Assembly (NCBI RefSeq): GCF_000331105.1
Contig: NC_020054.1
Location: 2,388,813-2,452,812 of the forward strand
Direction of reading: 5' to 3'
DNA length: 64,000 nucleotides
Source of the DNA: Fibrella aestuarina BUZ 2
Lineage (GTDB): Bacteria > Bacteroidota > Bacteroidia > Cytophagales > Spirosomataceae
Shown piece after piece: positions 1 through 64,000 of this stretch (its first letter is position 1; each line of letters begins with the position of its first letter). The notes under the pieces are model-generated. The model saw nothing but the letters and a program-made list of their open reading frames with translations, made no database searches and had not been told where the DNA came from. Made by a program: the position numbers and the translations under genes.

Positions 1-203
1 TAAACTTGGCGCGCGGTACTCGCCGTATTTTTGGACCTGTGGCGTTAGGGCCTGGAGGTGGTTCACTAGGCGCTATGGCAGCTGAAATGGAACCGGGTGA
101 TCGGATTTCAATTCAGGTCGAAGGCGTGCAGCGGCGTAATTTCCGGGGCGATATTAGTGAGGTGCCAATGGGTAACCTCATTCAAAACATAGCGCTCTAT
201 TAA
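1..203 (+). CDS. gldM: Gliding motility / type IX secretion protein GldM, C-terminal fragment
   Basis: This is the last ~67 codons of a gene entering from the left edge, read from base 3 with no start in the window. The residues run from NLARGTRRIFG to PMGNLIQNIALY, with PGDRISIQVEGVQRRNFRGD near the end. That fits the C-terminal domain of GldM, the inner-membrane-anchored periplasmic shaft of the type IX secretion motor. The identification rests mainly on its position directly before gldN, because gldKLMN is a conserved gene order in Bacteroidota. The fragment is too short for independent proof. An in-frame TTG at base 6 is not a real start. Confidence 0.75.
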   Translation, partial: NLARGTRRIFGPVALGPGGGSLGAMAAEMEPGDRISIQVEGVQRRNFRGDISEVPMGNLIQNIALY

Positions 204-208
204 TGTAC

Positions 209-232
209 TAAAGCGGGCGTTGGCCCGTTTTT
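209..232 (+). terminator. Hairpin with T tract between gldM and gldN
   Basis: A GC-rich stem (CGGGC / GCCCG) with a GTTG loop is extended by A-T pairs and followed by five Ts. It begins six bases after the gldM stop codon. It looks like an intrinsic terminator or attenuator lying inside what is normally one operon. Confidence 0.6.
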
Positions 233-264
233 AGCTTAGACAGTTAATGACCTTATATCCAGCG

Positions 265-5691: not shown

Positions 5692-6537
5692 ATGATCCTT
5701 ACCGAATGCCCTCGTGATGCGATGCAGGGGCTGGCGCGGTTTATCCCGACAGCCGACAAGATTCGCTACCTGAACGTGCTGCTGCAAGTAGGCTTCGATA
5801 CGCTCGATTTCGGTTCGTTTGTATCGCCCAAAGCAGTGCCGCAGATGCAGGATACGGCCGAGGTGCTGGCCGGCTTAGACCTGGCAGGTACGTCGACGAA
5901 ACTGCTGGCGATCGTGGCGAACAGGCGCGGGGCCGAGCAGGCCGTAGGCTACGAGGCAATCCGGTACGTTGGCTTTCCATTGTCGGTGTCCGAGACGTTT
6001 CAGCAGCGCAACACCAACCGATCCATTGCCGAAGCCATAACCGATGTCGCCGCGATGCAACGACTTTGTCAGGAGGCCGACAAGGAGTTGGTGGTGTATC
6101 TGTCGATGGGATTTGGTAATCCCTACGGCGACGCCTACAGCCCGGCGCTCGTGGTCGACTACGCCCGGCAACTCGACGAACTGGGGATTCGCCATATCGT
6201 GCCGTCCGATACGATCGGCACGGCCACACCGGCTGGCATCGAAGCGTTATTCAATGAGTTAGCTGATGCCCTGCCGTTTCAGCGGTTTGGGGCGCACCTG
6301 CACGCCCGCCCCGACGAAACCGCCGCGAAAGTAACGGCCGCCGTGCAGGCTGGGGTTCATCGCCTTGATGGGGCTATTGGCGGCCTAGGTGGTTGCCCGA
6401 TGGCGGCCGATACGCTGACAGGTAATCTGCCGACCGAGGCTGTTGTGGGTACGTTGCAGGCGTTGAACGTACCTGTCACACTCGATCTGGACCGGTTGGC
6501 CGAGGCCGTACAACTGTCGCACGAGGTGTTAGGGTAG
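5692..6537 (+). CDS. Hydroxymethylglutaryl-CoA lyase family protein
   Basis: This is a TIM-barrel enzyme of the DRE-TIM/HMGL family, which cleaves HMG-CoA to acetoacetate and acetyl-CoA in leucine and ketone-body degradation. It opens with 'ILTECPRDAMQG' (family 'VEVGPRDGLQ'), followed by 'DTLDFGSFVSPKAVPQMQD', 'SDTIGTATPAGI', 'FGAHLHARPDETAAKV' with the metal-binding histidines, and 'GGLGGCPMA' with the catalytic cysteine. I chose the ATG at 5692; the upstream ATG at 5671 would start inside the inverted repeat. The opening motif departs from the usual form, so the exact substrate is not certain. Confidence 0.87.
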   Translation: MILTECPRDAMQGLARFIPTADKIRYLNVLLQVGFDTLDFGSFVSPKAVPQMQDTAEVLAGLDLAGTSTKLLAIVANRRGAEQAVGYEAIRYVGFPLSVSETFQQRNTNRSIAEAITDVAAMQRLCQEADKELVVYLSMGFGNPYGDAYSPALVVDYARQLDELGIRHIVPSDTIGTATPAGIEALFNELADALPFQRFGAHLHARPDETAAKVTAAVQAGVHRLDGAIGGLGGCPMAADTLTGNLPTEAVVGTLQALNVPVTLDLDRLAEAVQLSHEVLG

Positions 6538-7354: not shown

Positions 7355-7410
7355 GGGTACGTTGGGTGTTTAGAGGCAAGACTCCCAGCGGCACAAAACC
7401 GTTGGAATGG

Positions 7411-7935
7411 CTACATAAACAACTGCTGAATCTCCTCCTTGACGGCGCGCAGGGCGTCGGAGGTGGGCTGGCGGTCGCGCTGGATGATGCGCTCGAAAAT
7501 CCGCTTCGACAGGTCGAGGGCGGGCGCATCGGGCCGAACGTCGCCGCTCGCCTGGTTAATGAGCGTGGCTACGTCGTTCATGGCGCCCTGAATCTGCTCC
7601 CAAACTGCCTGACTCATGTAGACCTGCTGCGAGAGGTTATGGTTAAACTCGTCGCGGATGTCGCGTAGTAGCAACTGTTGCAGATCGAGGGCGGTGTCGG
7701 CCTGCCCGCCGAGCCGAAGCAATAATTGGTTGGGGCTAATGCGTTCCAGAAACAGAACCATGCGCTCGTAGGCCTGTAGCCGAATGGGCACCACCGTTTC
7801 GGTATAGCGTTGTTTAACGTCGTTGTGGTGGCGGTCGGCCTCGCGTTGCAGCAGTAGCTTTACGGTCAGGTACATGCCATACAGAACAAGCGCCGCCGGA
7901 ATAAACAGTTTAATCAAGTCACCAAGGACAGCCAT
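7411..7935 (-). CDS. Membrane-anchored protein of unknown function (DUF7935-like)
   Basis: A single N-terminal transmembrane helix (about residues 8-28, 'LFIPAALVLYGMYLTVKLLL') is followed by a helical, soluble 145-residue part with 'VVPIRLQAYERMVLFLERISPNQLL' and 'IRDEFNHNLSQQVYMS'. This matches from memory a family conserved in Bacteroidota and named DUF7935. No enzymatic motif is visible. The start codon touches a TAnnTTTG promoter element that serves the opposite strand, so this gene and the IscA-like gene are divergent. Confidence 0.75.
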   Translation of the reverse strand: MAVLGDLIKLFIPAALVLYGMYLTVKLLLQREADRHHNDVKQRYTETVVPIRLQAYERMVLFLERISPNQLLLRLGGQADTALDLQQLLLRDIRDEFNHNLSQQVYMSQAVWEQIQGAMNDVATLINQASGDVRPDAPALDLSKRIFERIIQRDRQPTSDALRAVKEEIQQLFM

Positions 7936-7943
7936 TATCTTTG
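7936..7943 (+). promoter_or_regulatory. Bacteroidota -7 promoter element for the IscA-like gene
   Basis: TATCTTTG matches the -7 consensus TAnnTTTG exactly. Transcription would start near 7950, about 95 bases before the ATG at 8045. I do not see a clear TTG-type -33 element. Confidence 0.45.
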
Positions 7944-8044
7944 TAGTTTTAATAGAGTTTAGTCGTTTGTCGATTGCGTTGCCATCACTGGGTTAGTAGC
8001 CACGGGATGCACCGCCTGGTCAACCGACCAATGCCCCATCACCT

Positions 8045-8341
8045 ATGACCATTCAGGCCCCTGTTCAGCTACGCCCCGACGCCCGCGACCGGATAATTGA
8101 CACGCTAACAACGCAAAAAATTCCGGCTGAGTATGGCTTACGCGTCGGTATACGTGGGGGCGGCTGCGGCTCATCATGGCTGTTGGGGTTCGACCTGCCC
8201 GGCCCGGCCGATGAAGTGTATCTCATCGATGACGTTCGGGTCATTATCGATAAGCGCCACCTGCTGTATGTGCTCGACGCCACCATCGGCTACGAAGAGT
8301 CGGAAGACGGGCGGGGGTTTGTGGTGGAGAAAGGGGGTTGA
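8045..8341 (+). CDS. IscA/HesB-like protein with a single cysteine
   Basis: A 98-residue protein with the HesB/IscA fold: 'YGLRVGIRGGGCGSSWLLGFD' near residues 30-50 and 'IDKRHLLYVLDATIGYEE' near 70-85. A-type Fe-S carriers normally bind a cluster through three cysteines, one in 'GGCSG' and two in a C-terminal 'CGCG'. Here only Cys41 remains, and the C-terminus is 'RGFVVEKGG'. It may have a role other than cluster delivery, or need a partner for ligands. It stands alone before a large kinase gene; no suf or isc genes are in the window. Confidence 0.8.
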   Translation: MTIQAPVQLRPDARDRIIDTLTTQKIPAEYGLRVGIRGGGCGSSWLLGFDLPGPADEVYLIDDVRVIIDKRHLLYVLDATIGYEESEDGRGFVVEKGG

Positions 8342-8441
8342 TGGTGGTAATTTGTCGGTTCAGTAAGGATAACAAACCGACAAAGCGAAAACATTAACGT
8401 CCAGCGTTGCGTCTGTGGCACGATTTTAGGTAACCTATGGG

Positions 8442-11400
8442 TTGACTGCCATTTTTCTTACTTCATCCGTGGTCTTCATCGAACGACACATATTCTTACT
8501 GCTTGCCTGTATAGCCCTGCTTTTTTCGGGGCTGTGCTATGTGTTGCTGGAGCAGGATGCCCCGGGCGCAACCGATGAGCAGTATGTGGTGGCGTTGCAG
8601 GAACGCATCCGGCAGGAGACCCGCGTCAGCGCCACCGAACTAAAGCAACTGGCGGCCAAAGTAGCCAATACGCCCAGCTATGCCTTCGGCACGCTGGAGC
8701 AGCCTACTCAGTATCCCTATTACATTTTTCGGAATAAAAAGCTGCTTTACTGGTCCGATAACCGGTTTATTCCTGACTACGAGCGCATCGCCAACATCCC
8801 CTTCACCCGGCTGATCGACTTTGATCAGGGGCGGTTTATCGTTAGCCGGATCAAGACGTACCACAAGCGGGATACACTCGAGATTTTTTCGCTCATCAAC
8901 GTCTATCGGCAGTACAACAATACCAATACGTACCTGCAATCGGGCTATAACCCGGCCCTGTTCTCGGTTGATCCGCAGTCGGTAACCACGCAGAAAGGAC
9001 CGTCGCATCAGAATATCTACGATGCGACGCCGGTGTTTCTGTTTTCGGTTATTCCGCCTAAAGTCGATCCGTACCGCAACCACACTACCCCCGTCAACAC
9101 GGTGATTCTGGCTACGTTGGGGGTATTGCTGCTGGGTATTTACGTGATCCGGCAGATTAGCCGCGCGGCCCGGCGACGGCGCTACGAAGCGGGTTTCCTG
9201 TGGCTGGCGGGCTACCTGATCTTGCTGCGGGGGCTGATGCTCTACGTGGGCGTGCCTTATCTGTTCATCGAAAACGATCTGTTCAACGCCAAGCACTACG
9301 CCTCGTCGGAACTGTCGCCCTCGCTGGGTGATCTGATGCTCAACGGGGTCGCGCTGGTCATTCTGGCGTTTTATATCGCCAACAACTACTTCCGGTCACG
9401 TACCTACCGCCGTTTACTGCATCAGAAACCCACGGTCTGGCTCCTGCTGTCGGTGGGCTGCGTGCTATTGAGCTATACGGTCTTTTACTTTTGCTTCACG
9501 CAGTTGAATGATCTCTACGAGAAGTCGCAGTATACGCTCGACCTGTCGCTGAGCATCGAGTTTTCACCCCTGAAGATCGCCTGTCTGCTGTTCTTCGTCA
9601 TCCTGTCGCTCGTATACTTCCTGGCGCAGCACACGCTTGTCAGCCTCTTTACGCGCTTCAACGATCATAATCGCTGGGTAGGCGTTGGGTTGTTCGTGGG
9701 GGCTTCGTTGCTGTCGGTGGGTATTTGCTGGCTGCTCAACCTGACGGTCGAATGGGTGTATGCACTGAATGGCGCGTACTTTCTGGCTCTCTACCTGAGC
9801 GGGTTCCCGCGGTATCTCTACACCTTTCAGTACAAAACATCACTGTACCTGTTTCTGGGCGCGCTGATCTGCGCGGCTACGGCCGCCAACGTGGTCTACG
9901 AGCAAAGCATTCGGAAAGACTGGCTCGCCAAAAAAACGCTGGGTAAACAACTGCTGGCCGAAAACGACGAGTACGGCGAACTGTTGCTGTTCAAAGCCCA
10001 CGAAGGGATTCAGAATGACCTGAACATCCGGCAGGTGCTGCACCCCGACTCGGCGTTGCGGCGGGAGAAAATCCAGCAGCGAATCAAGAGCCGGTATCTC
10101 GATCGCTACCTCGACAAGTACGATACGGAAGTCATTTCCTTCGACGCGCAGGGCAATTCGCTGGATGTAAGCATCAACGCGACGCCGCTCAGCGATTACC
10201 TCAGCCGGTTTCAGCAACCCCGCTACAAAACGATCTACGAAGACCTGTACTTCGTCAATGAGGTCGGTAATCATTTTAATAAAGAGTACGTCAGCTTCAT
10301 TCCTATCCGCAACGGTACCGGTGCTGTGGCTGGGTACGTGGTGCTCGACCTCAAACTGCGGCCGATCACGCCGGGCAATGTGTACCGCGAGTTGCTGGTC
10401 GACAGCAAGACGATTCAGAGCCCCGACGTGCGGGAGTACAGCTACGCGTTTTTCGAGAAAGCCGGGCGCACGGCTACGCCACGGCTGGTCGAAAGCACGG
10501 GTAGCTACAACTATGAACGCAAGCTGCCGGTATCGCTGCTGAACAACCCGGCGCTCTACGACCGGGGAATCACGGTTGAGCGCACGAGCCACCTGGGTAT
10601 ACAGGGCAGCAACGGGCGGATTCTGGTGGTGTCGTCGGCGGCCTATCCGCTCAGTACGGTGCTGGCCAACCTGTCATTTCTGTACCTGATTCTGGTGCTG
10701 TCGGTCATTCTGGTCATTATTCTGTATGCCGTGCAGTATGGGCTGTCGCGGTTTAGCATCAACTATTCGACCCGCATTCAGATCCTGCTCAACGTGGCGT
10801 TCTTCCTGCCGCTGGTGCTGGTTGTGGTGATTATTCTGGGTGTAATCAGCGCCAATTACGTCGCCAATCAGGAAACCAATTACATCAGCAACACCAAGAA
10901 CATCGCGGCCAAAGTATGGACGTACCTGGACGAAAACCTGAAGGGTATTCGCAGCAAAGAAGCGATGGAAGAGGAGTTGCAGTCGATTGCCCGCGACGCC
11001 GACATCGACATCAACCTGTTCGATACGGCCGGGCGACTTTACACCTCCACGCAAATGCTCATTTACGAGAGTGGCAACCTCTCGAAATACATCAACCCGC
11101 AGGCGTTTGTCCACATTGCCGAAGACAAGGAAAACCAGAAGCTCTTGTACGAACAACTGGGCACCAAGCAGTACAGCACGGCCTACGTGGGGGTAAAATC
11201 GCCCGATGGCCGGCTACTGGGCATCATGAGCGTACCTTACTTCTACGCGCAGCCCGAACTCGATAAGCAGTTGCTCGAAGTGGTATCGTCGGCCCTGAGT
11301 GTCTTTACTACGCTGTTTGTGGTGTTTCTGGTGCTGTCTTATTTCGCCGCCGGTAGCCTGACGCGCCCGCTCAAAATGCTGACGCAGCGGATTCGCCGGA

Positions 11401-13130: not shown

Positions 13131-13493
13131 ATGAGTAAGAAGACATTGGTGATTGGCGCCACTGAAAATACGGCACGCTACGCCAACCGGGCTACCCGCA
13201 GTTTGTTGCAACACGGCCACGATGTTGAACAGATTGGCCTGAAGGCCGGCACCGTGCAGGGCGTACCCATCCAGACGGGCCTCCCCGACCTGACGGACAT
13301 CGACACGGTGACAATGTATGTGGGCGCCCGCAATCAGGCTGGGTACGTCGACTACCTGAAAAAGCTGAAACCCCGCCGGGTGATCTTCAACCCCGGTGCC
13401 GAAAACCACGACCTCGCCCGCCAACTACAGCAAGAAGGCATCGAACCCATCGAAGCCTGCACACTGGTGATGCTGTCAATCGGGAATTATTGA
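13131..13493 (+). CDS. CoA-binding domain protein (YccU/COG1832 type)
   Basis: A 120-residue stand-alone Rossmann domain: 'KTLVIGATENTARYANRATRSLLQHGHDV' is the glycine-poor nucleotide-binding start, and 'FNPGAENHDLARQLQQEGIEPIEACTLVML' the end. It matches the CoA_binding_2 family related to the N-terminal part of succinyl-CoA ligase. Members bind CoA but their role is unknown. The gene is monocistronic, convergent with the methyltransferase, and separated from it by a repeat array. Confidence 0.87.
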   Translation: MSKKTLVIGATENTARYANRATRSLLQHGHDVEQIGLKAGTVQGVPIQTGLPDLTDIDTVTMYVGARNQAGYVDYLKKLKPRRVIFNPGAENHDLARQLQQEGIEPIEACTLVMLSIGNY

Positions 13494-13496
13494 TTT

Positions 13497-13632
13497 GGCT
13501 ACGCCGTCATTGGTTGTCATTTGCCTGCGGCGTCATTAATTGTCATTTGTGGTCATTGATTGTTTTTTACAACGAATGACAACGAATGACAACGAATGAC
13601 AACGAATGACAACCAATGACAACCAATGACAC
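13497..13632. repeat. 10-bp tandem repeat array with an inverted counterpart
   Basis: Bases 13571-13630 are six tandem 10-mers, four AACGAATGAC then two AACCAATGAC. The left half (13497-13566) holds degenerate reverse complements (GTCATTGGTT, GTCATTAATT, GTCATTGATT), with TTTTTT near the centre. The whole block can fold on itself and fills the gap between two convergent genes. Confidence 0.85.
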
Positions 13633-13636
13633 TTCC

Positions 13637-14539: not shown

Positions 14540-14615
14540 AGCCAGGTGATTAAGGGGCAGGTACGGGTTAGCCTGTTAATCGCCAAGGTAGCGTATTCTC
14601 CTGACTATCTGCTAC

Positions 14616-21975: not shown

Positions 21976-21983
21976 CAATCTAG

Positions 21984-22353
21984 TGGAGACGCAGGGAGTT
22001 GAACCCTGGTCCAGTCAAGGAAAACGTCGCGCTTTCTACATGCTTAGTGGTGATTAGGGTTGTCGGGCGGCAGACTGGCTCACCACTGGCCTATCTGACA
22101 CCTTACGTTGTTTTGTCTCGCTTCTTGTCACAACGATTAACGAAGCCAGCGCTGCAGATCGACGCCTCCTGATCCAACCGGCAGCACGTAGGTCGGGGAG
22201 ACGATGGCATTTGCTAAATCCTCCGGATTAAGCAGCCATGGCGTAGTTATACTCGCCAGTTATTGTTTTGGTGATTTGTTTGGACGGGAACTGTCACCCA
22301 CTCCCGGCATGCTTACACGCGCTTTCAGCAAGCTGTCAATTCCAGTCGCCCCC
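21984..22353 (-). ncRNA. ssrA: Transfer-messenger RNA (tmRNA)
   Basis: tmRNA rescues stalled ribosomes and tags their products for proteolysis. On the minus strand the 5' end reads GGGGGCGACTGGAATTGACAG, and the 3' end has a T arm (GGGTTCAACTCCC) and CGTCTCC. The two ends pair as a 7-bp acceptor stem (with G-U pairs). The reading frame on the minus strand (22257 down to 22231, stop at 22230-22228) encodes the tag GEYNYAMAA, ending in the expected MAA-type degron. The length is about 370 nt. CCA is not encoded in full and would be added. Confidence 0.95.
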
Positions 22354-40354: not shown

Positions 40355-40454
40355 CTGCTTTTGTCATCCCGACGATAGGAGGGATATTAATGTACCACAA
40401 CGCTCAAACAAGGGAACCTCAATATCCCTCCTATCGTCGGGATGACAAAAGCAG
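40355..40454. repeat. GTCATCC palindromic intergenic repeat, copy 3
   Basis: Arms 40355-40388 and 40421-40454 are perfectly complementary over 34 bp with a 32-bp loop. The stem carries GTCATCCCGACGATAGGAGG with TATTAA instead of the CTTGA of copies 1 and 2; both arms share the change. It sits immediately after the M1 peptidase stop. Confidence 0.85.
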
Positions 40455-40503
40455 CCAGATGTCAAAAACGCTATCATCAACCCGTTACCCTCAAACCAAA
40501 CCT

Positions 40504-41532
40504 ATGTACGCACGCTACCTCACCTTGCTGGCTGGCCTGTTCCTCACGCTGAACGGGTTTGCGCAATGGCAACCCCAATCGGTTGGCACCACGGCTCACT
40601 TTCGGTCCATCAGTGTACCCAGCGCCACGGTGGCCTGGATCGGCGGTACCAAAGGCACCTTCGTCCGAACGATCGATGGGGGACGTACCTGGCAGGCCGG
40701 CAACGTACCCAACGCCGACGCCTGTGATTTCCGGGATGTGAAAGCCTTCGACGGCCAGACCGCCTTCCTGATGAGCGCCGGACCCGCCGAAAAGGGTCAG
40801 GCCCGCATCTACAAAACCACCGACGGCGGCCAGACCTGGACCATCCAGTACCAGACCGAGCAGCCGGGCGTCTTTTTCGACAGCATGGATTTCTGGGATC
40901 GGCAGCACGGCATGGCCGTGAGCGACCCCGTGGAAGGCCGGTGGTTTATCGTCAAAACCGACGATGGAGGACGTACCTGGCAGCGTATACCCGCTGCTGC
41001 TTTACCGCCCATGGAACCCAACGAAGCCGCTTTTGCGGCCAGTGGTACCAACCTCATCGTGCAGGGTAGCCAGCACGTCTGGCTCGTGTCGGGTGGAGGA
41101 CCGGCCGGGCGCGTGTTCCGGTCGACCGATCGAGGACGTACCTGGGCCGTCAGTACCACGCCCATTCCCGGCGGCGAGATGACGGGCCCGGTTGGGATGC
41201 AGTTTCAGAACAAAGACGTGGGGATGATTGTCGGCGGCACCTTCAAACCGCAAACCGAACAGCCCCAGCCCAACGCCGCCATCACCCGCGACGGCGGACG
41301 TACCTGGCAGCCAGTCACGCAACTCGACCCGGCGGGGCTCAAAGAATCCGTGGCTTTCCTGCCCGGCAACCGCATTTTGGTGGTTGGCTCGTCGGGAACG
41401 ACGCTGTCGGCCGATGGAGGACGTACCTGGCAGAAACTCGACACCGAACCTTATTATTCGGTAGCCTGCGTGGGGAATACCTGCTACGTCGTCGGCGCCA
41501 AAGGGCGCGTTGCCAAGCGGGTGTTCAAGTAA
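40504..41532 (+). CDS. Secreted BNR/YCF48-like beta-propeller protein
   Basis: A signal peptide ('YLTLLAGLFLTLNGFAQ') is followed by repeated beta-propeller blades with the BNR/sialidase-like motif DGGRTW: 'TIDGGRTWQ', 'TTDGGQTWT', 'TDDGGRTWQ', 'STDRGRTWA', 'TRDGGRTWQ' and 'SADGGRTWQ'. It matches the YCF48-like/WD40-BNR group, exported proteins of unknown role often called oxidoreductase or photosystem assembly-like. I chose ATG 40504; the longer reading starts in a palindrome. Five of the six blades use the same 12-mer DNA word. Confidence 0.9.
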   Translation: MYARYLTLLAGLFLTLNGFAQWQPQSVGTTAHFRSISVPSATVAWIGGTKGTFVRTIDGGRTWQAGNVPNADACDFRDVKAFDGQTAFLMSAGPAEKGQARIYKTTDGGQTWTIQYQTEQPGVFFDSMDFWDRQHGMAVSDPVEGRWFIVKTDDGGRTWQRIPAAALPPMEPNEAAFAASGTNLIVQGSQHVWLVSGGGPAGRVFRSTDRGRTWAVSTTPIPGGEMTGPVGMQFQNKDVGMIVGGTFKPQTEQPQPNAAITRDGGRTWQPVTQLDPAGLKESVAFLPGNRILVVGSSGTTLSADGGRTWQKLDTEPYYSVACVGNTCYVVGAKGRVAKRVFK

Positions 41533-43536: not shown

Positions 43537-45069
43537 TCAATTGGTAAAACAGGCGTCGCCTTTTTCGCCCATGTAGGCGCCCCAACGAACCGTTTTGGCG
43601 GGTAACCCACTCAGCGAGCGGCGTGCAAAATAGGTGACGGGCGCTGGCAGCGGGCGCATGACATCCACACCGGGGTAGTTGACCGACGTGGCGCCCAAAG
43701 ACCCATACAGTACGTCGACCGAGCCGTCGTTGTCAAGGTCGCCGATGTAGGGCGTGATGGCGAAATTGGCACCGGGCAGGGCGTCGCTGATGCGCGATTG
43801 GCTGTTATTTCTAAAATCAAACCCGATCAGCTTGCTTTCTACCTTCGACCGCGGTCCGTGCGGGTCGTCGTCTTCGTTCACATTAAGGACCACGTCGTCA
43901 AAACCATCGTCGTTCATATCGAGCGTAAGCGGCGAGCCGTAGGAGAACCCCATCGTAGCGTATTCATGTACCGGCCGGCCCGTAGCCCCATCGAGCAGAA
44001 ACTGGATGCCCCGCCCATAAACCGGGTACGTACCCACGGCGTAGGAGACGAAGAAATCCGGGATGGAATCGTTGCCAGTAAAATACCCGACGGCGGGCAT
44101 GCTGTAGGTTTCGGCGCCCGGCGCCGAAAAGGTCCAAAGTACGCGGTCGGTCTTGCCATCGATGGCCAGAGTACGCGCCGCCACCGTTGTGACGAGGTAA
44201 TCGGGCGTGCCATCGCGGTTCAGGTCACACACCAGCGGGGGCGCTACTATCCCTTTTTTCGCTTCTGTCACCAGCAGTTTGGCGTTGGCGAGGTTGTCGT
44301 GGAAGAGGTCTCCTAGTGTGGCTTTATACAGGCAGCCACCAATGGCTTCGCCGCCCGTACCAAACAAAACCAGCCACTGGGCCGGGTCGCTACCCCGTTT
44401 ACTGATCACGGGCGAGCAGTAGGTTTCTTTGCCGTCGGGCACGCGGGCCTGATGCAGAATGTGGCCCGTACGGGTGCTCAGCAGCAGCAGGCGACCAACG
44501 GGCCGGGGCGATTTGGTGTCCATGATGGTGGCGTCGCCGCCGTTGGCAATCAGTAGGTCGTCGAGGCCATCGGCGTCCTGGTCGGGGATGAGCTGCCCAT
44601 TGGTGAAATTGAACCACCCAGCCCGTTTGTGAGCCATGCTGTCGGTAGCCGTAAAAAATTCCCAGATCAGGTGGCCCGTTTTGCCGTCAATGGCCTGTAA
44701 CTCCGCCGAGCGGCCCCCAATAATGACGTCGGGCGTCTGATCGCGGTTGATGTCGAGAAACGTGGCCGAACCAAATACCTGATTGCGGCCCGGCGTGTGC
44801 CAGAGCAGGTGCCCATCCTGTCCGTCGAAGGCGAGTACCGCCGAGTCGGAGTGCGCCCATTCGGGGCCACCGCCCCCCAGAATGATATCGTTGACGCCGT
44901 CGCCCGTCAGATCTGCGACCCGCGGCGACGACGTTGCCTGGACGCCGGGCAGGGTAATCAGCCAGTCCTTTTTCTTTGTTGTACAACCAATTAACTGAAA
45001 TAGTGTCGCTAAACTACATAGGGTATATATACTTAAAATGTATCGAAAATTTGTAGAATTGCTCATCAT
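43537..45069 (-). CDS. Lipoprotein with FG-GAP / PQQ-like beta-propeller repeats
   Basis: A signal peptide with lipobox 'LIGC' (Cys near residue 29) anchors a 480-residue propeller. Repeats contain calcium-binding-type 'DLTGDGVNDIILGG', 'DINRDQTPDVIIGG', 'DQDADGLDDLLIA', 'DLNRDGTPDYLVT', 'DMNDDGFDDVVLN' and 'DLDNDGSVDVLYG', mixed with 'AFDGQDGHLLWHT' and 'AIDGKTGHLIWEF', the PQQ-propeller type. The mix suggests an outer-membrane or surface-attached binding protein. No partner genes are adjacent. An ATG at 45066 is an alternative start. Confidence 0.87.
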   Translation of the reverse strand: MMSNSTNFRYILSIYTLCSLATLFQLIGCTTKKKDWLITLPGVQATSSPRVADLTGDGVNDIILGGGGPEWAHSDSAVLAFDGQDGHLLWHTPGRNQVFGSATFLDINRDQTPDVIIGGRSAELQAIDGKTGHLIWEFFTATDSMAHKRAGWFNFTNGQLIPDQDADGLDDLLIANGGDATIMDTKSPRPVGRLLLLSTRTGHILHQARVPDGKETYCSPVISKRGSDPAQWLVLFGTGGEAIGGCLYKATLGDLFHDNLANAKLLVTEAKKGIVAPPLVCDLNRDGTPDYLVTTVAARTLAIDGKTDRVLWTFSAPGAETYSMPAVGYFTGNDSIPDFFVSYAVGTYPVYGRGIQFLLDGATGRPVHEYATMGFSYGSPLTLDMNDDGFDDVVLNVNEDDDPHGPRSKVESKLIGFDFRNNSQSRISDALPGANFAITPYIGDLDNDGSVDVLYGSLGATSVNYPGVDVMRPLPAPVTYFARRSLSGLPAKTVRWGAYMGEKGDACFTN

Positions 45070-45103: not shown

Positions 45104-45321
45104 GTGACTGGCTACGGCCAGCGGGGCGCGTATAGGGATGCAGCGTGCGGTAAAAAGTTAACTGGTTGAGTATGCGGATGCTTCGGATAGTAGCAATGCG
45201 CTAGTTGTCAGGCAATTAGAGGTGTAATGACCCAGGCGCTGGTAGACGCTGCTCACCCCGTTTCTCTGCACCATCGACCCGGACTGGGTACGTTGCCTGC
45301 CCGATCGAGGCCACGATTGTG

Positions 45322-45939
45322 TTAGGTAGTCTGCCGATTCCGGGCGTTGAGCTGATTGATATACTGCGCCAACTCAGGTATGGTCAGCACGGCATCGACG
45401 GCTACGCGCTCAATGGCCTGTTGAGGCATGTAGCCGACCTGCGCCGTATCGGGGTGTTGAACGAGCGCCAGGCCACCCGCCCGCTTGATGGCGTCGAGGC
45501 CCTCGGTGCCGTCGGCGTTAGCCCCCGACAGCAATACGCCCACCACCGCCGAACCGTAGACATCGGCCAGCGACTCGAAGGTGACGTCGATGGCGGGGCG
45601 GCTGTAGTGCACTTTTTCTGAATCGTCGAGCGAGAAGCTGCCGTCGCGTTCCAGCAGCAGGTGGTAGTCGGCAGGGGCGAGGTAGATGTGGCCCGGCAAC
45701 AGTTCGGTCTTTTCGTCGGCCTCCTGAACGGGCAACTTCGTTCGGAGTGCCAGCAAGTCGGCGAGGGTGGAGTCGGCGGTGTTTTTGCGGTGCACTACCA
45801 CCACGATGCCGACCGACAGGGGCAGTTGCAGGGCGGGCAGGAGCTGAAGCAGCACGTCGATGCTCCCCGTTGACCCCCCAATCACAACGACCCGATAGCC
45901 CGTTTTTCCTGTACGTTCCATCACCCCACTTTCCGCCAT
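45322..45939 (-). CDS. cheB: CheB-type protein-glutamate methylesterase without receiver
   Basis: The 205 residues are only the catalytic domain of CheB: Ser23 in 'GGSTGS', His50 in 'VVHR' and Asp142 in 'LLSGANADGTEG' are the triad. There is no receiver domain, so activity must be governed by another protein. It overlaps the 3' end of cheR by 19 bp and is the last gene of the block. No chemoreceptors, CheA or CheW are in the window. This CheR-CheB-hybrid-kinase arrangement recurs in Bacteroidota, where the methylated target is not clear. Confidence 0.92.
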   Translation of the reverse strand: MAESGVMERTGKTGYRVVVIGGSTGSIDVLLQLLPALQLPLSVGIVVVVHRKNTADSTLADLLALRTKLPVQEADEKTELLPGHIYLAPADYHLLLERDGSFSLDDSEKVHYSRPAIDVTFESLADVYGSAVVGVLLSGANADGTEGLDAIKRAGGLALVQHPDTAQVGYMPQQAIERVAVDAVLTIPELAQYINQLNARNRQTT

Positions 45940-50765: not shown

Positions 50766-52358
50766 CTAGGTACTGCTACCGGCCGACATGGGTAACGGCT
50801 GACTGACGGGCAGGACTACAATAAAGCTGGCCCCCTCACCCGCGCGGCTGCGGGCCGAGATCAGCCCGTTGTGTTTGTCGATATTCTTTTTGGCAATGGC
50901 CAGCCCGATGCCCGTGCCTTCGTAGCTGCTCTGGTTGTGCAACCGCTTGAAAATGATGAAGATCTGATCCGCAAACTTCTGATCGAACCCAATGCCGTTG
51001 TCCTGCACGACGAGGCGACAGAACGGCCCGTCGGGTGTGGGCTGCCCGTCGATCGCCTTGGTAGCAATGCGCTCGGCGGAGATATTGATGTGGGGCGGCA
51101 CCCCCGGCCGGGCAAATTTGAGGGCGTTGCCCAGCAGATTCTGAAGCACCTGCCGAATGCGGGTCGGAATGCTGTCGATGACCGGCAGCGACCCCACCGA
51201 CACGGTAGCTCCTTTGCGGGTGATCACGTCGTCGTAGTCGGCCAGCAGCTCATCAACGACCACGTTGAGGTCAGTGGGGTGGAACGGCTCGGGTACCGAC
51301 AGCTGCGCATAGGCCAGCAGGTCGTTGATCAGGTTCGTCATCCGCGCCGACGACCGGATCGACCGGTCGAGGTAGGTGATCGCCTCGGGGTTGTCTTTCA
51401 GGTAAATGGCCTTGATGGTGTCGTTGAGCAGCTGAATTTTGCGCAGCGGCTCTTTCAAATCGTGCGACACCACCCAGGTAAATTGCTGCAACTCGTGGTT
51501 GGTGCGTTCCAGCTCCCCGTTTTTCAGCCGCAGTTCGTGGGTACGTAGGGCGACTTCCTGCTCCAGCAGCTCGGCGGTTTGTTTCTGCGCGTGGATGTCG
51601 GTAAACGTACCGATCCAGCGCGTTACCGCCTCGGCCTGCCGGATGGGCAGCACCCGCAGCAGGTGGTATTGAAACGTACCCGTGTCCCGGTTTTTCAGCC
51701 GCACCTCCCGCACCAGCTCCGTGCCGTTGGCCAGCGCCGTTTCCCAGTGGTGCCAGGGATCATCGTCGGGATGAGTCTCCGGAAAGGCCGTGGCCGTGGT
51801 TGCGTACCGAAACCAGTGCTCGTTGACGTATTCGAGCTGCCCGCTCGCGGTGGTGGTAAAGGCGATCTGCGGCAGCGAGGCCAGCAACGTCTGTAACTGA
51901 GCTACCTGCGCCGCCAGCGCCTGCTGCGCCTGTTTGCGCACCGCTACTTCGGCCCGCAGCGACTCCTGCGTAGCCCGGAGTTCCTGCTGCTGTTCGTAGA
52001 GCTTCTGGAGCGTTTTTACTTTCAGCACCAGAATATCCGGGTCGAACGGCTTGGTCAGGTAATCGACGCCCCCGGCCGTATATCCCCTGGTGATGAATCG
52101 TTTCTCTGTATTGACCGCCGACAAAAAGATGATGGACGTATCGCGCGTTTTGCTGAAACCGGCAATGGCATTGGCCACCTCGAAGCCGTCCATGTCGGGC
52201 ATCTGCACGTCCAGGATAATCACCGAATAGGGGGTACTGAGCACCTTTCGAAGCGCTTCTTCACCCGACTCGGCCGTATCGACAGAAAACCGATGTAGTT
52301 CGAGAATTTTCTTTAAGGGTAAGATATTTTCCCGCCTATCATCAACAATGAGAATCAT
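50766..52358 (-). CDS. Response-regulator histidine kinase: REC-PAS-HisKA-HATPase
   Basis: Starts with a receiver domain ('[19 protein letters not shown]', Asp in '[13 protein letters not shown]', Lys in '[10 protein letters not shown]'), then a coiled coil, a PAS domain (~160-280) and a kinase core ('[19 protein letters not shown]', '[41 protein letters not shown]'). It has no membrane segment. I chose 52358, the residue where the receiver begins; the open frame extends 26 codons upstream without family sequence. It is the first gene of the block and is 20 bp before the CHASE3 kinase, suggesting a relay between them. Confidence 0.9.
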
Positions 52359-56450: not shown

Positions 56451-57569
56451 TCAGTTAGGTTCTGGGGGCGAAAGCGGGCGGTTGGGTAGGTGCGGCAATA
56501 CCAGCCGGGCAAACCAGTCGGCTTCGTCGATGAGCGGGTAGCCCGAGAAAATAAAGGCTCGGATGCCCATGTCCATGTAGCGGTTGATTTTCTCGATGAT
56601 CTGCCCGGCACTACCTACCAGTGCCCCGCCAGCGCCCGAGCGGGTTTTGCCGATGTCGGTCCAGAGCAGCGGTTCAACAAACCCATCGGCGTCGGCCTGG
56701 GTACGTAGTTGATTCTGCCGTTGAACCCCCAGCGACCAGGCACTTTGTGACGCATTTTTCAGCGCCAGTCCACGAACCGGGTCAAATTTTGACATGATGT
56801 GCCGCGACCAGGCGCGGGCTTCCTCCTCCGTTTCGCGCACAATCACATGAATGCGTAACCCAAAATCAATAGTACGGCCGTAGTTGGCGGCCCGCTGGGC
56901 AACGTCCTGCATGGTTTCGTAGAGCATGTCTTCCGTCTCGGGCCACATCAGAAACACGTCGCAGTAGCGGGCGCAGAGGTCCCGGGCTCCGTCTGACGTA
57001 CCGCCAAAATACAGCATCGGCCCTCCGTTGTTGTGGTATGGTTTGGCGGGAGCCGCATCCAGGCTAATCCGGCCATACACCGGCCCATCGTGCTCGATGC
57101 GGGGCTGGGTCCAGGCCTGTTTCAGAATTTGAATCGTTTCGGCGCAGCGCTGATACCGCAGCTCGGCCGCCTCCCGATACCCCGGCAAATCGGAGTTGAT
57201 GATGTTGATGGCCAGCCGACCCTGAAGCATATGATCGAGCGAAGCCAGCGTACGGGCCAGCATCGGCGGGTGCAGTTCTCCGCAGCGAATCGCCGTCAGT
57301 AGCTTGATCTGGTGGAGCGCTGGGGCCACCCCGGCGGCAAAGGGAATGACTTCCTGCCCCACCATAAACGATGTTGGCAGCAGCAGGTTGCTGAAACCTA
57401 GTCGCTCGGCTGTCAGCGCAATGTCGCGGCAGTGGCTAAACGTCGCTTTGGCCGGGTCACGGATACTCAGAAACTCAGTGTCTTCGCCGCACAGGTCTGA
57501 AAACCAGGCTACCTCGCAAAGGCGTTCCGCTGTTCGGGTCGGTACGGCGGTGATGGGTTGATGAAGCAT
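56451..57569 (-). CDS. LLM-class flavin-dependent monooxygenase, SsuD/SfnG-like
   Basis: A 372-residue bacterial-luciferase-fold enzyme: 'LTAERLGFSNLLLPTSFMVGQEVIPFAAGVAPALHQIKLLTAIRCGELHPPMLARTLASLDHMLQGRLAINIINSD' and 'MLYFGGTSDGARDLCARYCDVFLMWPETEDML' are the FMN- and substrate-binding parts shared with alkanesulfonate monooxygenase SsuD and dimethylsulfone monooxygenase. These use FMNH2 and O2 to cleave C-S bonds, releasing sulfite. It is the last gene of a block with a permease, a YeiH exporter and SoxCD-like genes. No flavin reductase is seen nearby. Confidence 0.88.
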   Translation of the reverse strand: MLHQPITAVPTRTAERLCEVAWFSDLCGEDTEFLSIRDPAKATFSHCRDIALTAERLGFSNLLLPTSFMVGQEVIPFAAGVAPALHQIKLLTAIRCGELHPPMLARTLASLDHMLQGRLAINIINSDLPGYREAAELRYQRCAETIQILKQAWTQPRIEHDGPVYGRISLDAAPAKPYHNNGGPMLYFGGTSDGARDLCARYCDVFLMWPETEDMLYETMQDVAQRAANYGRTIDFGLRIHVIVRETEEEARAWSRHIMSKFDPVRGLALKNASQSAWSLGVQRQNQLRTQADADGFVEPLLWTDIGKTRSGAGGALVGSAGQIIEKINRYMDMGIRAFIFSGYPLIDEADWFARLVLPHLPNRPLSPPEPN

Positions 57570-60404: not shown

Positions 60405-61643
60405 TTATCGCCAGTTTTCCGGTTTGTGCAGGACCTGCCCGTCGGCCTTCACCTGCCAGCTCGTGATCGGGTTGAGGTGATAACCGCCCATATCGGGTCC
60501 GCGGGCGTCGAGCAGTTGGCGAAAGGTGGGCTGCACGTAGCCCGTTTCGTCGGTCACGCGGCTCATGATTTCGGTAGCGGCCCCGTTCCACTGCCATAGG
60601 TGCCGGAATCGCACGTGCGCTTTGTCAAGTACCGGTTCATCCAGCTGGGCCAGTTGCCAGCTGTTGCCGGCGTCGGTGCTGACATCCACCCGAGCGACCT
60701 TGCCGCGCCCGCTCCAGGCCAGCCCGCGAATTTCGATCCAGCCGCGCTGCACCTGAACGGGGTAGGCTGGGTACGTGATAATGCTGCGGGCGTCGATGTC
60801 GAAGCTGAACTGACGAATTTTTCCCTCTTTGATGGGTTCGGAATACTTGGCCGTCTCTTCACGCGTTTGCCAGGGGGCGTCGCCGAGTTCCAGCCGCCGG
60901 AGCCACTTTACGCTGGCGTTGCCTTCCCAGCCGGGCAGAAACAGCCGGACGGGATAACCCTGTTCGGGGCGGAGGGCCTCGCCATTCTGGGCGTAGGCGA
61001 TGATGGCGTCGTCCCAACCTTTCGCTACGGGTATGCTGCGCGTCATAACGGCGGCGTCGCCACCTTCGGCCAGAAACCAACTCGCCTTGGGTTTAACGCC
61101 CACCTCCCGAAACAGGGTCGACAGCCGAACACCCGTCCATTCGCTCTGGCTGGTGAGGCCGCAGATCTCCTGCGGCGTCATGGTTTCCTTACCCGTGCGG
61201 AAATTGCCCGAACATTCGAGAAACGCGATGCGCGACACGCCCGGAAACCGCTTCAGATCGGCCAGTGAGAAAACTGTTGGGCGCTCGACCAGCCCGTGAA
61301 TGATCAGCTCATACTTGGCCGGATCGATGACCGGAACGCCGTTGTGGTGGCGTTCGAAGTGCAGGTCGGAGGGGGTAATGATGCCGTGAAAATCTTGCAG
61401 GGGCGACCGGGACGAAATGTCAGACGGGCTTTTGACCAGCTTTTCAAAGCCCGACCGGGTGCCTACCTGACCCGGCGGAGCACCCATCCGTTTGGTCGGG
61501 TCGTCGGGTACGTCGGGCAGGCCAATCTGTAGCCCTCGGGCAAACGACGTCTGCACGACGGCGACGGCCGCAGTGGCCGCCCCGCCCAGCAGCGTTCGGC
61601 GGGTTAGTTTCGGGGCGTTGTTACGGGAGGGCTCGGTAGTCAT
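60405..61643 (-). CDS. soxC: SoxC-like sulfite dehydrogenase, molybdopterin subunit
   Basis: A 412-residue sulfite-oxidase-fold enzyme. Twin-arginine signal 'TRRTLLGGAATAAV' (Arg15-16) sends it folded to the periplasm. The Moco ligand is Cys144 in 'AFLECSGNF'. 'YPVRLFLPGWEGNASVKWLRRLEL' and 'GLAWSGRGKVARVDVSTDAGNSW' are the SoxC/SUOX core and dimer domains. It oxidises sulfite to sulfate and passes electrons to a cytochrome c. It lies seven bases after the SoxD-like gene. Other sox genes (soxXYZAB) are absent, so it acts on free sulfite. Confidence 0.92.
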   Translation of the reverse strand: MTTEPSRNNAPKLTRRTLLGGAATAAVAVVQTSFARGLQIGLPDVPDDPTKRMGAPPGQVGTRSGFEKLVKSPSDISSRSPLQDFHGIITPSDLHFERHHNGVPVIDPAKYELIIHGLVERPTVFSLADLKRFPGVSRIAFLECSGNFRTGKETMTPQEICGLTSQSEWTGVRLSTLFREVGVKPKASWFLAEGGDAAVMTRSIPVAKGWDDAIIAYAQNGEALRPEQGYPVRLFLPGWEGNASVKWLRRLELGDAPWQTREETAKYSEPIKEGKIRQFSFDIDARSIITYPAYPVQVQRGWIEIRGLAWSGRGKVARVDVSTDAGNSWQLAQLDEPVLDKAHVRFRHLWQWNGAATEIMSRVTDETGYVQPTFRQLLDARGPDMGGYHLNPITSWQVKADGQVLHKPENWR

Positions 61644-61649
61644 TTGGTG

Positions 61650-62237
61650 CTAGTGAATGTCGGGGCCGCCCCGCCGGTCGTCGGGAACGAAACGGGGTTG
61701 GGCGGGCATCTTTACGGTCGGTAAAAGGCGGGCATCCAGTTCGGTTTTTTCGTCGATCAACCCGTTGGCATGCAGCAGGTAAGCCGTTAAAGCGTACACT
61801 TCCTTGTCGGTTAGTGAACCGGGCTGGTTGAACGGCATAGCCCGCCGGATGTAATCGAAGACGGTGGTGGCGTAGGGCCAGTAGTTGCCGATGGTTTTTT
61901 CGGGGCGCTTACCCGCGGTAGAGTTGGTGGTCACCAGCGAACCGTTCGGCCCGCCCACACCACCGGGGCCGTGGCAGGCGGCGCATTTGGCTGCAAACAG
62001 CACCGCCCCCTGCGCCGACGTACCTGACCCGGCAGGCAGGCCGACGCCATCGGGCCGAACGTCGATGTCGAGTCGGGCAATCTGAGCGGGGGAAGCTGGT
62101 TTGCCAAAGCCAAACCGATCAGGTACGTTCTGGATAAGTGTATCGGCCGGCATGGGTACGTACCTGCCGGGCGACGGCATTTGCCAGCCGCCCGACAGGC
62201 CCATTAGGGGCAAGGCCATGAGCCATCGCTTACTCAT
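61650..62237 (-). CDS. soxD: SoxD-like cytochrome c, electron acceptor of sulfite dehydrogenase
   Basis: A 195-residue exported cytochrome c with one haem motif, CAACH (Cys85-His89, 'FAAKCAACHGPGGVGGPNG'), and a Met ligand in 'RRAMPFNQPGSL'. 'VPDRFGFGKPASPAQIARLDIDVRPDGVGLP' is the N-terminal segment found in SoxD-type proteins. The N-terminus is a signal peptide. It is followed by soxC after seven bases and preceded by the DoxX-like gene with an 8-bp overlap, so all three are probably one translationally coupled unit. Confidence 0.9.
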   Translation of the reverse strand: MSKRWLMALPLMGLSGGWQMPSPGRYVPMPADTLIQNVPDRFGFGKPASPAQIARLDIDVRPDGVGLPAGSGTSAQGAVLFAAKCAACHGPGGVGGPNGSLVTTNSTAGKRPEKTIGNYWPYATTVFDYIRRAMPFNQPGSLTDKEVYALTAYLLHANGLIDEKTELDARLLPTVKMPAQPRFVPDDRRGGPDIH

Positions 62238-63948
62238 ACAAGCCTGCTTTAAGCGTGCTTTCGGTCAGTGCGTAGTTCCGTTTGTAACGGTCCAGCACCA
62301 CGTAGATCGAATCCTTACGCTCGTTCAAGCCCCGCAGAATGACCCGGTTACCACCATCCTGAACGGTGTAGGCCAGCACCATCCGATTGCGTTTGGTCGG
62401 CTTGCTTTCGGCCTTGATGCCTTTGGTCCGGCGCGTCGAGCGGGCGATGGGGTCAATCTTCGGGTCTTCGGGGCCGATAATGGCCTGTACGTCTTTGGGG
62501 ATAAAGGCAACCGCTTCCAGCGAATCCCGCGTGGCTGCGGCTTTGTCCGCTTTTACCGATGGCTCATTGGGCCCAACTGGCCGCGCGCCCTGCCCAACCG
62601 GACGCGGCCCGCCGAGATCGCGGTTGTTCACCAGAAACTCCCGATTCTCCTGGTTGCGGGCGCCCCGGTTTTTGTCCTGCAAATAGAGAACGTGATGAAC
62701 CGTGTCGGCTTCGTAGTAGAACACCCGCTGTCCACCGGCTACGCCCGTCAGCTCAAACGTCCGGTTGATGTCGCGCATGGGCGCGCCGCCGCCGTTGGAG
62801 AGGTCAAGTTCAACGGGTTTGGCCGTTTTAAAGGTCAGCGTGGTCCAGTTTTCGAAGGTCGCCTGCTGCCAGCGGGTGGTGTCGGTAGCCGATTCGGGCA
62901 AGGCTTGTCCGTTGAGTTTAAACTCGCTGACGGCGTAGTTACCGCGCAGGGCTTTCAGCCCCTTTTGGGCGGGTTGTTTGTAGGGATCATAGCGGAAATT
63001 GACCCATTGCAGCCAGAAAAGCAGACCCAGGAAGATCCCGATCGTGGCCGTTTTCAATCCCACGCGCACGTATTGCTGCCAGCCGGTAAAGACGGGGGCG
63101 AAGTAGGCAGGTATCGTGGGCCGCTCTTCGATGAGCAGTTTGTACAGGTCTTTTACGTAATAAATCAGCAAAAACGCACTGAGCAATACGAAGTACGAAC
63201 TGTAGACGTGCACGCCCCCGTCGTAGGCGAAATTGACGTAGACAATGTCGGCGAGCGCACCACACAGCAGCACGGCACCCCAGAAGGTGGTGGCCCGGAA
63301 GAACAGCAGCGCCCCCGCTGCCACTTCGACCACGCCCGTGAAGACCTCATACCAAGGTACGATGCCGATGCTTAGCCAGTAGATTTTCTGGGCGGTGAGG
63401 TCGCCAAAATCGGTGTTGAGAACGCCCAGCGACGGATAGGGTAACTGAGTGGGCATAAGCTTGGTAAACCCAAAACCGATGATGCCGATGCCCGCCCGGT
63501 ACCGCACCACCACGCGCAGCCAGTAATAGAGCCGTTCGTAGTTCAGCACGTCGCGTTTCCGCCAGGTTACCACCGCCGTCCAGACACCACCGGCAACGAT
63601 GGCAAAGGCCAGCGTGATGAGCCAGGTGGCGTAACCGTTGAGCGTAGAGCCGAACAGCCGGTTGCCAAACAGGTTGAGACCGGAGCCAAAGCGGGCCACG
63701 TCGTAGAGGTCGCGGTAGTGCAGGTGTAGCCAATCGAGCGACAGCACGTTTTTGTACCAGCTCCAGTCGTTGGGCAGCGACATGGCCACAAAAAACACAA
63801 AGGCGATGCGGAACAGTAGTTTCTGGGTGTTGGTCCACCGCCGTCTGGTGACGGGTTCGCTGGTAGCGGCCGGGGTTGGGTACGTTGGCGCGTCGGTGGG
63901 CCGGTTGCCCAACTCAATTTGTTCGGGAATAAGGTTGTACGTAGCCAT
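62230..63948 (-). CDS. DoxX-like membrane protein with C-terminal periplasmic domain
   Basis: About 572 residues. The N-terminal ~330 have a cytosolic leader and then eight or so membrane helices of DoxX/HTTM-like type ('LLFRIAFVFFVAMSLPNDW', 'YRAGIGIIGFGFTKLMPTQLPYPSLG', 'YEVFTGVVEVAAGALLFFRATTFWGAVLLCGALADIVYVNF'). The C-terminal ~230 are soluble, with 'NWTTLTFKTAKPVELDL' and 'DRYKRNYALTESTLKAGLYE', beta-rich and basic. DoxX/DoxD proteins include a thiosulfate:quinone reductase subunit. It overlaps the SoxD-like gene by 8 bp. I used ATG 63948; the two codons before begin with GTG. The gene's upstream region leaves the window. Confidence 0.82.
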   Translation of the reverse strand: MATYNLIPEQIELGNRPTDAPTYPTPAATSEPVTRRRWTNTQKLLFRIAFVFFVAMSLPNDWSWYKNVLSLDWLHLHYRDLYDVARFGSGLNLFGNRLFGSTLNGYATWLITLAFAIVAGGVWTAVVTWRKRDVLNYERLYYWLRVVVRYRAGIGIIGFGFTKLMPTQLPYPSLGVLNTDFGDLTAQKIYWLSIGIVPWYEVFTGVVEVAAGALLFFRATTFWGAVLLCGALADIVYVNFAYDGGVHVYSSYFVLLSAFLLIYYVKDLYKLLIEERPTIPAYFAPVFTGWQQYVRVGLKTATIGIFLGLLFWLQWVNFRYDPYKQPAQKGLKALRGNYAVSEFKLNGQALPESATDTTRWQQATFENWTTLTFKTAKPVELDLSNGGGAPMRDINRTFELTGVAGGQRVFYYEADTVHHVLYLQDKNRGARNQENREFLVNNRDLGGPRPVGQGARPVGPNEPSVKADKAAATRDSLEAVAFIPKDVQAIIGPEDPKIDPIARSTRRTKGIKAESKPTKRNRMVLAYTVQDGGNRVILRGLNERKDSIYVVLDRYKRNYALTESTLKAGLYE

Positions 63949-64000
63949 AAACACGTGGATTAGAGGGTGAGAGCCCCGCGCCGACCCGCTTTGGCGGCCT

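Follow-up and report, generated by a model that had tools for sequence, protein, structure and literature searches.

Few kinds of highly iterated DNA words are understood. Chi sites are asymmetric, over-represented, lineage-dependent and recognised by RecBCD or AddAB, Chi-type signals are usually polar with a bias to the leading strand, uptake sequences form closely spaced, terminator-like inverted pairs, and pyrimidine-purine (YR) steps are flexible DNA. Among known iterated words PMC4390886 names Chi, the uptake sequences and the highly iterated palindromes (HIPs); it describes the last as GC-rich palindromes that generally occur together with a matching methyltransferase, gives them a density of 0.5 to 2.5 copies per kb (its section 2.3), and reports Elhai's proposal of methylation-directed repair for HIP1. 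For the Neisseriaceae, PMC3630211 presents eight dialects of the uptake sequence that share a conserved CTG core and one further dialect derived via an inserted base, and for Kingella oralis 5,918 copies in 2.4 Mb. The word considered here is the heptamer ACGTACC, which recurs in a stretch of 64,000 nucleotides (the window; NC_020054.1, positions 2,388,813 to 2,452,812) of Fibrella aestuarina BUZ 2, whose genome is denoted G000 below.

ACGTACC-YR, a nine-base unit without palindromic symmetry, is a lineage-specific and highly iterated signal in double-stranded DNA, independent of codon choice, gene sense and replication strand. The window holds 89 copies of the heptamer, 52 on the plus and 37 on the minus strand; the initial annotation's count by eye of about 80 was slightly low, and its estimate of about 8 by chance is close to the 8.4 expected at Markov order 0. 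Expectation is 6.6 at order 1, 14.2 at orders 2 and 3 and 20.5 at order 4, and at all five orders ACGTACC ranks first among the 7-mers of the window. At order 5, the null proposed at the outset, the count is above expectation both in the window (89 vs 65.8, rank 9) and in 584 kb of chromosome (700 vs 527.8, rank 1), but this is not a fair null since the model already holds the enriched hexamers ACGTAC and CGTACC. The iteration extends genome-wide, with 8,209 copies, or 1.18 per kb, vs 686 of the reversed word in the 6.94 Mb of the two contigs (6.775 Mb and 161.8 kb).

The continuations ACGTACCTG and ACGTACCC, singled out earlier as usual, account for 37 and 40 of the 89 window copies, and YR directly follows the heptamer in 76. 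Of the 699 copies with full flanks in the 584 kb of chromosome, 48% are preceded by A; on the other side 87% continue with C or T, and in 91% the second base after the heptamer is A or G; beyond about 10 bases the flanks are without strong consensus. Relative to synonymous shuffles of the chromosome genes, the endings after ACGTACC stand at 15.9-fold for CA, 9.8 for TG, 7.9 for TA, 3.8 for CG and 4.3 for CC, with CT, TC and TT below 1-fold. This enrichment of YR endings therefore makes the unit (A)ACGTACC-YR, mostly ending in TG or CA. In the same 584 kb, ACGTACCTG occurs 255 times vs 11.8 expected and ACGTACCCA 209 times vs 7.9 (order 3), and in the whole genome there are 6,394 copies of ACGTACCYR (0.92 per kb) vs 120 of its reverse. 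A further word, ACGTGCCTG, is a single-base variant of the Fibrella word.

For the codon and the coding versus non-coding comparisons, genes were open reading frames called in this analysis, and non-coding pieces shorter than 30 bases or containing N were dropped (locus L012 contains masked bases). With codons shuffled synonymously within each of 487 genes, ACGTACC is found 325 times vs 83.5 in sense and 299 times vs 57.7 in antisense, the reversed word being at 0.98 and 0.8 of the null, respectively; codon usage, which the initial annotation had allowed might account for the enrichment, does not explain the word. ACGTACCYR reaches 22-fold in non-coding DNA (80 vs 3.6) and 15.8-fold in coding DNA (589 vs 37.3; both order 2), and the majority of copies are genic because 86% of the sampled chromosome is coding. 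As had been read from the window, this is a word of DNA that occurs in all frames, in both orientations and in genes and spacers, and is not a protein motif. Its orientation relative to replication, also raised at that time, lends no support to a polar signal (408 copies leading and 413 lagging, origin and terminus being placed by a rough fit of GC skew). Spacing in G000 is near-random, with a coefficient of variation of 1.10 and a variance/mean of 0.93 in 2-kb bins. Close neighbours are slightly too frequent (spacings below 50 bases 10.8% vs 6.1% expected), in part through 23 overlapping GGTACGTACC pairs in the chromosome sample, which includes the window. The window copies are as follows, each number being the first window base of a heptamer and each sign the strand on which ACGTACC reads.

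1-10 kb: 2805- 2957- 3750- 3915- 4087- 4922- 5887- 5963- 6448- 6467+ 6848+ 7190+ 7356- 8856+ 8928+ 9398+
10-20 kb: 10333- 10920+ 13342- 15076+ 16655+ 16911- 17088- 17299+ 17413+ 17446+ 17508+ 18280+ 18697+ 18795+ 19913+ 19994+
20-30 kb: 24431- 25695- 25728- 25923- 26661- 27165+ 27405- 27577- 28093- 28720+ 28874- 29808+
30-40 kb: 31732+ 32827+ 32854+ 33098+ 33273- 34731+ 37160+ 37514+ 37583- 37640+ 38135+ 38411+
40-50 kb: 40683+ 40703+ 40971+ 41136+ 41298+ 41421+ 43375+ 43521+ 44025- 44028+ 45287- 48092- 48837- 49765+
50-64 kb, first part: 51540- 51605+ 51674+ 52744+ 53577+ 55811+ 55821+ 55963+ 56700- 56996+ 57897+ 58964-
50-64 kb, rest: 60770- 61507- 62018+ 62122- 62155- 62158+ 63879-
44025..44034, both strands: GGTACGTACC, two copies in opposite orientation overlapping by 4 bases
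62155..62164, both strands: GGTACGTACC, the second overlapping pair of the window
41136..41144, plus strand: ACGTACCTG, the commonest full 9-base form, within the called gene 40390..41532 (plus)
45285..45293, minus strand: ACGTACCCA, an intergenic copy between the called genes 43537..45069 and 45322..45939

The window also holds a transfer-messenger RNA (tmRNA) gene at 21983-22353 on the minus strand, with the tag GEYNYAMAA.

The 161.8 kb second contig of G000 is probably a plasmid. It carries ACGTACC in both orientations and as densely as the chromosome does (187 in 160 kb vs 700 in 584 kb), and the nonamer is somewhat rarer on it (114 in 160 kb vs 566 in the 584 kb of chromosome), the end being looser. 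A plasmid search with 20 kb of this contig as query returned one record, Fibrella sp. ES10-3-2-2, in which ACGTACCYR stands at 0.58 per kb (50 kb examined). Separately, the genes of the second contig (G000 C1; loci L009, L023-L029) shun palindromes when compared with shuffles: CTGCAG 0 vs 57, CGTACG 1 vs 49, CTAG 15 vs 152, GCCGGC 13 vs 94 and CCCGGG 4 vs 35. The chromosome avoids the same palindromes less strongly (CGTACG is at 0.42 of the null there and at 0.02 on the second contig), and the avoidance on the second contig looks like a long restriction history.

Who else carries the word? A UvrC scan from the window gives the genus as Fibrella; G001 is Fibrivirga algicola, G002 F. rubiginis and G003 F. 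forsythiae, G004 being probably F. aquatilis. (The genome set used places Fibrivirga algicola in the genus Fibrella, and by UvrC this species groups with F. forsythiae.) The survey of ACGTACCYR covered 181 of 222 family genomes, those at least 90% complete, and its tables, like those of the full 222 genomes and of the phylum, were read by eye. Against 6,394 copies and 120 of the reversed control in G000, G001 has 5,622 and 115, G003 6,795 and 119, and the motif-poor G002 and G004 947 and 158, and 937 and 161, so that among the relatives within Fibrella two stand at about 50-fold and two at only 6-fold. None of the further family genomes among the 181 reaches 10-fold. The motif-rich state may have had a single origin within Fibrella, with which the UvrC tree is compatible.

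The comparison with related genomes that was suggested at the outset has turned up enrichment in the relatives within Fibrella and, in addition, things that the initial annotation had not seen, namely a second version of the word and copies conserved in some species. In samples of other family genomes the top word is ACGTAGC, which resolves to ACGTA-N-YR. In G222, G240 and G238, 61 to 65% of ACGTA copies are followed by YR at offset 1; in G003 and G000 YR follows at offset 2, in 45 to 53% of copies. Across the 222 family genomes ACGTANYR is most abundant in G222, with 39,401 copies vs 3,143 reversed (12.5-fold; 4.5 per kb; 1-kb bins over-dispersed with a variance/mean of 1.63), and there are 22,928 vs 2,638 in G238, 22,187 vs 2,862 in G240, 18,007 vs 3,056 in G211 and 10,207 vs 1,770 in G228. 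These five are the strong ones among 36 genomes of one genus (g5), probably Spirosoma, of which G224, G229, G233 and G236 are at 2.8 to 3.7-fold and the remaining 27 at 1.0 to 2.1-fold. The two Fibrisoma genomes (g18) also have this version, G161 with 11,939 vs 2,552 and G021, Fibrisoma montanum, with 11,914 vs 2,501. The two versions, ACGTA-CC-YR in Fibrella and ACGTA-N-YR in the probable Spirosoma and in Fibrisoma, thus have an ACGTA core and a YR end in common, and enrichment is patchy within genera. In a phylum sample of 392 genomes, the highest ACGTANYR value among the 388 outside the family is 1.66-fold (G419). Two observations from these surveys stand apart: ACGTANYR is nearly missing in G425, G595, G343, G430 and G271 (4 to 28 copies vs 910 to 1,873 reversed), probably through restriction avoidance, and 40 kb samples of G104, G021 and G006 (loci L072-L073, L070-L071 and L076-L077) have other over-represented words, ATCCGGAT and ACATTAA, ACCTGGA and TCACTCAA, which are possibly repeats.

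Conservation of copies in place was assessed on one-to-one BLAST segments of at least 250 bases with an E value of at most 1e-25 (the G004 set includes the F. aquatilis locus L103). The alignment of G001 with G003 covers 50.8 kb at 78% identity, and in it 42 of 54 heptamers and 36 of 46 nonamers survive unchanged at their positions, vs 544 of 2,710 control words of the same composition (20%; heptamer vs control p 4e-19), and there is a footprint, with the seven core columns at 87 to 98% identity and the flanks mostly at 70 to 80%. Judged by the logarithms of the kept fractions, loss of the word between these two species is about 6 times slower than that of control words. From G000 the heptamer is intact at 16 of 39 positions in G001 (control 317 of 2,004, 16%; p 0.0002) and at 7 of 18 in G003 (control 139 of 926, 15%; p 0.013). 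The nonamer from G000 is intact at 13 of 28 and 7 of 14 positions in these rich species; for the poor ones the figures are 3 of 19 (G002) and 1 of 17 (G004 set; rich vs poor p 0.0005). Such retention above controls therefore means that copies are maintained, with a clear footprint in the G001-G003 pair only. On the Spirosoma side most further pairs have too few copies for conservation to be judged; from G222 toward a mixed motif-poor set 0 of 16 are kept, with the control at 23%. That ACGTACC-YR is a real signal, and one maintained at least in part of Fibrella, we regard as very nearly certain.

ACGTACCYR stands 9.5-fold over the synonymous null on both contigs of G000 (589 vs 62.2) and ACGTANYR 6.4-fold in G222; at equilibrium the former would correspond to a scaled advantage of about 2 (ln 9.5) per copy. 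Only changes at the last two positions are clearly over the null (1.3 to 2.6-fold), core changes lying between 0.18 and 1.57. ACGTGCCYR is depleted in Fibrella (0.17 to 0.18), for which GTGCC, at 1.01 of the null, does not account, as is ACGTACGYR (0.20), in that case because CGTACG is generally avoided; ACGTGNYR is depleted in G222 and G240 (0.61 to 0.63). In the measure of Bakkali, the loads at 0, 1 and 2 mismatches are 29.0, 0.17 and -0.09 for degenerate ACGTACCYR, 9.1, 0.04 and -0.12 for ACGTANYR in G222, 54.1, 1.10 and 0.15 for ACGTACCTG, 44.2, 1.21 and 0.05 for ACGTACCCA, and 22.0, 2.6 and 0.15 for ACGTAGCA in G222. The non-degenerate uptake words give 182.9, 2.0 and 0.22 in Haemophilus and 392, 4.8 and 0.65 in Neisseria (PMC1939737), and loads at 0 and 1 mismatch are 5.7 and 1.47 for Escherichia coli Chi (PMC1939737 Table 6) and 1,128.6 and 10.4 for the HIP1 decamer (PMC1939737). 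The one-mismatch shoulder of the single words of this family largely represents other accepted forms of the unit.

The mechanism we consider likeliest is a molecular drive resembling that of DNA uptake sequences, to which we give a rough probability of 0.37. A DNA-recognition system acting in trans and reading the seven core bases strictly would give each copy a small advantage, of about two scaled units; DNA bearing the species' own word would be preferentially acquired or recombined, and copies would accumulate; changes of receptor specificity would produce new versions, and with loss of the recognition system the word would decay. Such a drive is favoured because there are two versions with a shared core, comparable to the Neisseriaceae dialects; because the word is non-palindromic, has no strand or sense bias and is equally enriched between and inside genes; because copies are kept in place in the Fibrella pairs, with the heptamer footprint of G001-G003; because one-mismatch forms of non-degenerate words are enriched as a drive expects (ACGTACCTG 54.1 then 1.1, Haemophilus 182.9 then 2.0); and because copies are scarcer near methyltransferase genes, ComEC, the uptake channel family, is present in 20 of 21 genomes (the lone miss being a genome 71% complete) and enrichment is patchy within genera.

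A number of results weigh against it. ComEC is present in motif-poor genomes too, so that it points to a possible uptake channel but does not discriminate, and heptamer density on the second contig matches that of the chromosome. In a hand count that leaves the 23 GGTACGTACC overlaps aside, 27 neighbour pairs at distances of 9 to 38 bases are inverted and 26 direct, with no inverted excess. The one-mismatch forms of the degenerate unit amount to 622 vs about 628 expected from the synonymous null (hand sums), and to +0.17 over base composition. From G000 to the motif-poor G002 the heptamer is intact at 10 of 29 positions vs a background of 17% (p 0.02), and copies of G002 and G004 are also in G000 at 10 of 20 and 3 of 6, which seems to be a residue of copies kept in these two motif-poor species. 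The column-by-column footprint is seen in G001-G003 only, and not between G000 and the other species. The Spirosoma pair G222/G240 is weaker and direction-dependent, with 20 of 68 and 20 of 38 kept and controls at 19 and 18%. Finally, the degenerate N/YR version stands in G222 at a density above that of Kingella oralis.

A less probable alternative is HIP-like: a putative methyltransferase, Type IIG or Bacteriophage Exclusion (BREX)-like enzyme would read one or other version of the word, and the sites would be made and kept by methylation-directed repair or through a self/non-self role of the mark. The density of about 1 per kb, as for HIP1, the strict core with degeneracy confined to N and YR, which resembles the usual notation of enzyme sites, the depletion of the near-cognates ACGTGCCYR and ACGTGNYR, and the heptamer density of the second contig all suit it. 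The initial annotation had likened the word to HIP1, a likeness that holds for density and broad class and fails on the palindrome, the unit being asymmetric and unlike the HIPs as PMC4390886 describes them. Its methylation core at GTAC finds no backing, GTAC in G000 standing at 0.97 (chromosome) and 1.16 (second contig) of the synonymous null, and ACGT is at 1.00 to 1.07 in G001, G002, G003, G004 and G021. Nor is there a common enzyme among the five Pfam methyltransferase families profiled over 21 genomes: PF01555 is missing in G001, G222, G211 and G161, PF00145 in G238, G240, G211, G228 and G161, PF02384 in G001 and PF02086 in G000, G001, G222, G240 and G211, and PF07669, the one family of the five in every motif-rich genome, is in 20 of the 21, motif-poor genomes included, with only a weak match in G000. 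None of the five tracks the word in these genomes (other families were not searched).

The surroundings of the methyltransferase hits are poor in the word, with 126 copies vs 295 expected from genome means over 44 non-overlapping loci of eight motif-rich genomes (11 of 55 were dropped as overlapping, and the G021 and G161 loci left out); 6 of the 44 reach or exceed expectation. The deficit is deepest in loci below 45% G+C (16 vs 113 expected), and base composition therefore accounts for part of it. Recent arrival may account for another part, in which case the word would need time to accumulate. On contig C1 of G161 there are 22 copies of ACGTANYR in 40 kb, with 7 and 17 in two 10 kb pieces of larger contigs, too few to set C1 apart. 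As an aside, open frames some 1,700 codons long that include a methyltransferase-like segment turn up repeatedly in the family, several of them on second contigs or plasmids.

G000:C1:44480, frame of about 1,700 codons
G001:C5:115411, frame of about that length
G161:C1:81700, frame of about that length
G234:C2:201532, frame of about that length
CP155472.1:73492-78582, frame of about that length

Slightly less likely again is a role in chromosome organisation, repair or recombination, as a nucleoid-protein site or a Chi-like site without polarity, in which a putative protein would bind the resident word and each copy would help a little. Copies are maintained in place, the near-random spacing in G000 is what would be expected if copies act singly, and YR steps would offer such a protein flexible DNA. 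However, signals of the Chi type are usually polar and the copies here divide evenly between the replication strands; a housekeeping role should not appear and vanish inside one genus; and the one-mismatch drop is from 54.1 to 1.1 for ACGTACCTG as opposed to 5.7 to 1.47 for Chi (PMC1939737 Table 6).

Mutation bias alone, with context-dependent mutation or repair turning near-words into the word, or the word being a mutation cold spot, is distinctly improbable. The low level of ACGTGCCYR, one transition away, and the roughly sixfold slower loss in G001-G003 would fit, but no general draining of the one-mismatch forms is seen, all seven core positions and not one are conserved between G001 and G003, and the word and ACGTGCCYR taken together are still at 5 times the null (598 vs 111).

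That codon usage, base composition or a dispersed repeat element is the source is scarcely credible, for though most copies are genic, the synonymous shuffles, the 22-fold non-coding enrichment, the flanks without consensus beyond about 10 bases and the near-random spacing all speak against it. Codon usage, a protein motif, a repeat element, replication polarity and a GTAC methylation core have each been tested and rejected.

Setting the mechanism aside, a broader description may be ventured, though its chances are somewhat short of even: an asymmetric self-marking word in two interchangeable versions, ACGTA-CC-YR and ACGTA-N-YR, by which a putative core-strict reader of double-stranded DNA would separate own from foreign DNA, at uptake or in the cell, with thousands to tens of thousands of sites per genome reshaped within the history of a genus. 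To our knowledge no self-marking word of such a kind is known from Bacteroidota. With two versions, rich and poor species within one genus, environmental hosts and visibly maintained copies, the question of why such words accumulate becomes directly testable. Were the reader an uptake or self-recognition system, the word would be a barrier to gene exchange, and we know of no such barrier described in Bacteroidota.

How, then, does the word sit among the described systems? With uptake sequences it shares the form of a non-palindromic word of 9 to 10 bases in both orientations, at about 1 per kb and in genes and spacers, dialects around a constant core among relatives, and the standing of most over-represented asymmetric word on both strands; it differs in strength, ACGTACCCA and ACGTACCTG being 45- to 55-fold over base composition vs 184-fold and 393-fold (PMC1939737 Table 1), in the lack of an excess of inverted pairs among the G000 copies, and in the degenerate version at 4.5 per kb in G222. 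With HIPs it has density (0.92 per kb for the nonamer, 1.18 for the heptamer), patchiness and other versions in relatives in common, but it is asymmetric where they are palindromic, and none of the five methyltransferase families follows it. Like Chi it is asymmetric, over-represented and lineage-dependent, and unlike Chi it is without leading-strand bias (408 vs 413), with a far steeper one-mismatch drop and strong differences within a genus. On this comparison ACGTACC-YR would appear closest to the uptake sequences, both in its shape and in the common core of its versions; it fails as a HIP on symmetry and as a Chi site on polarity.

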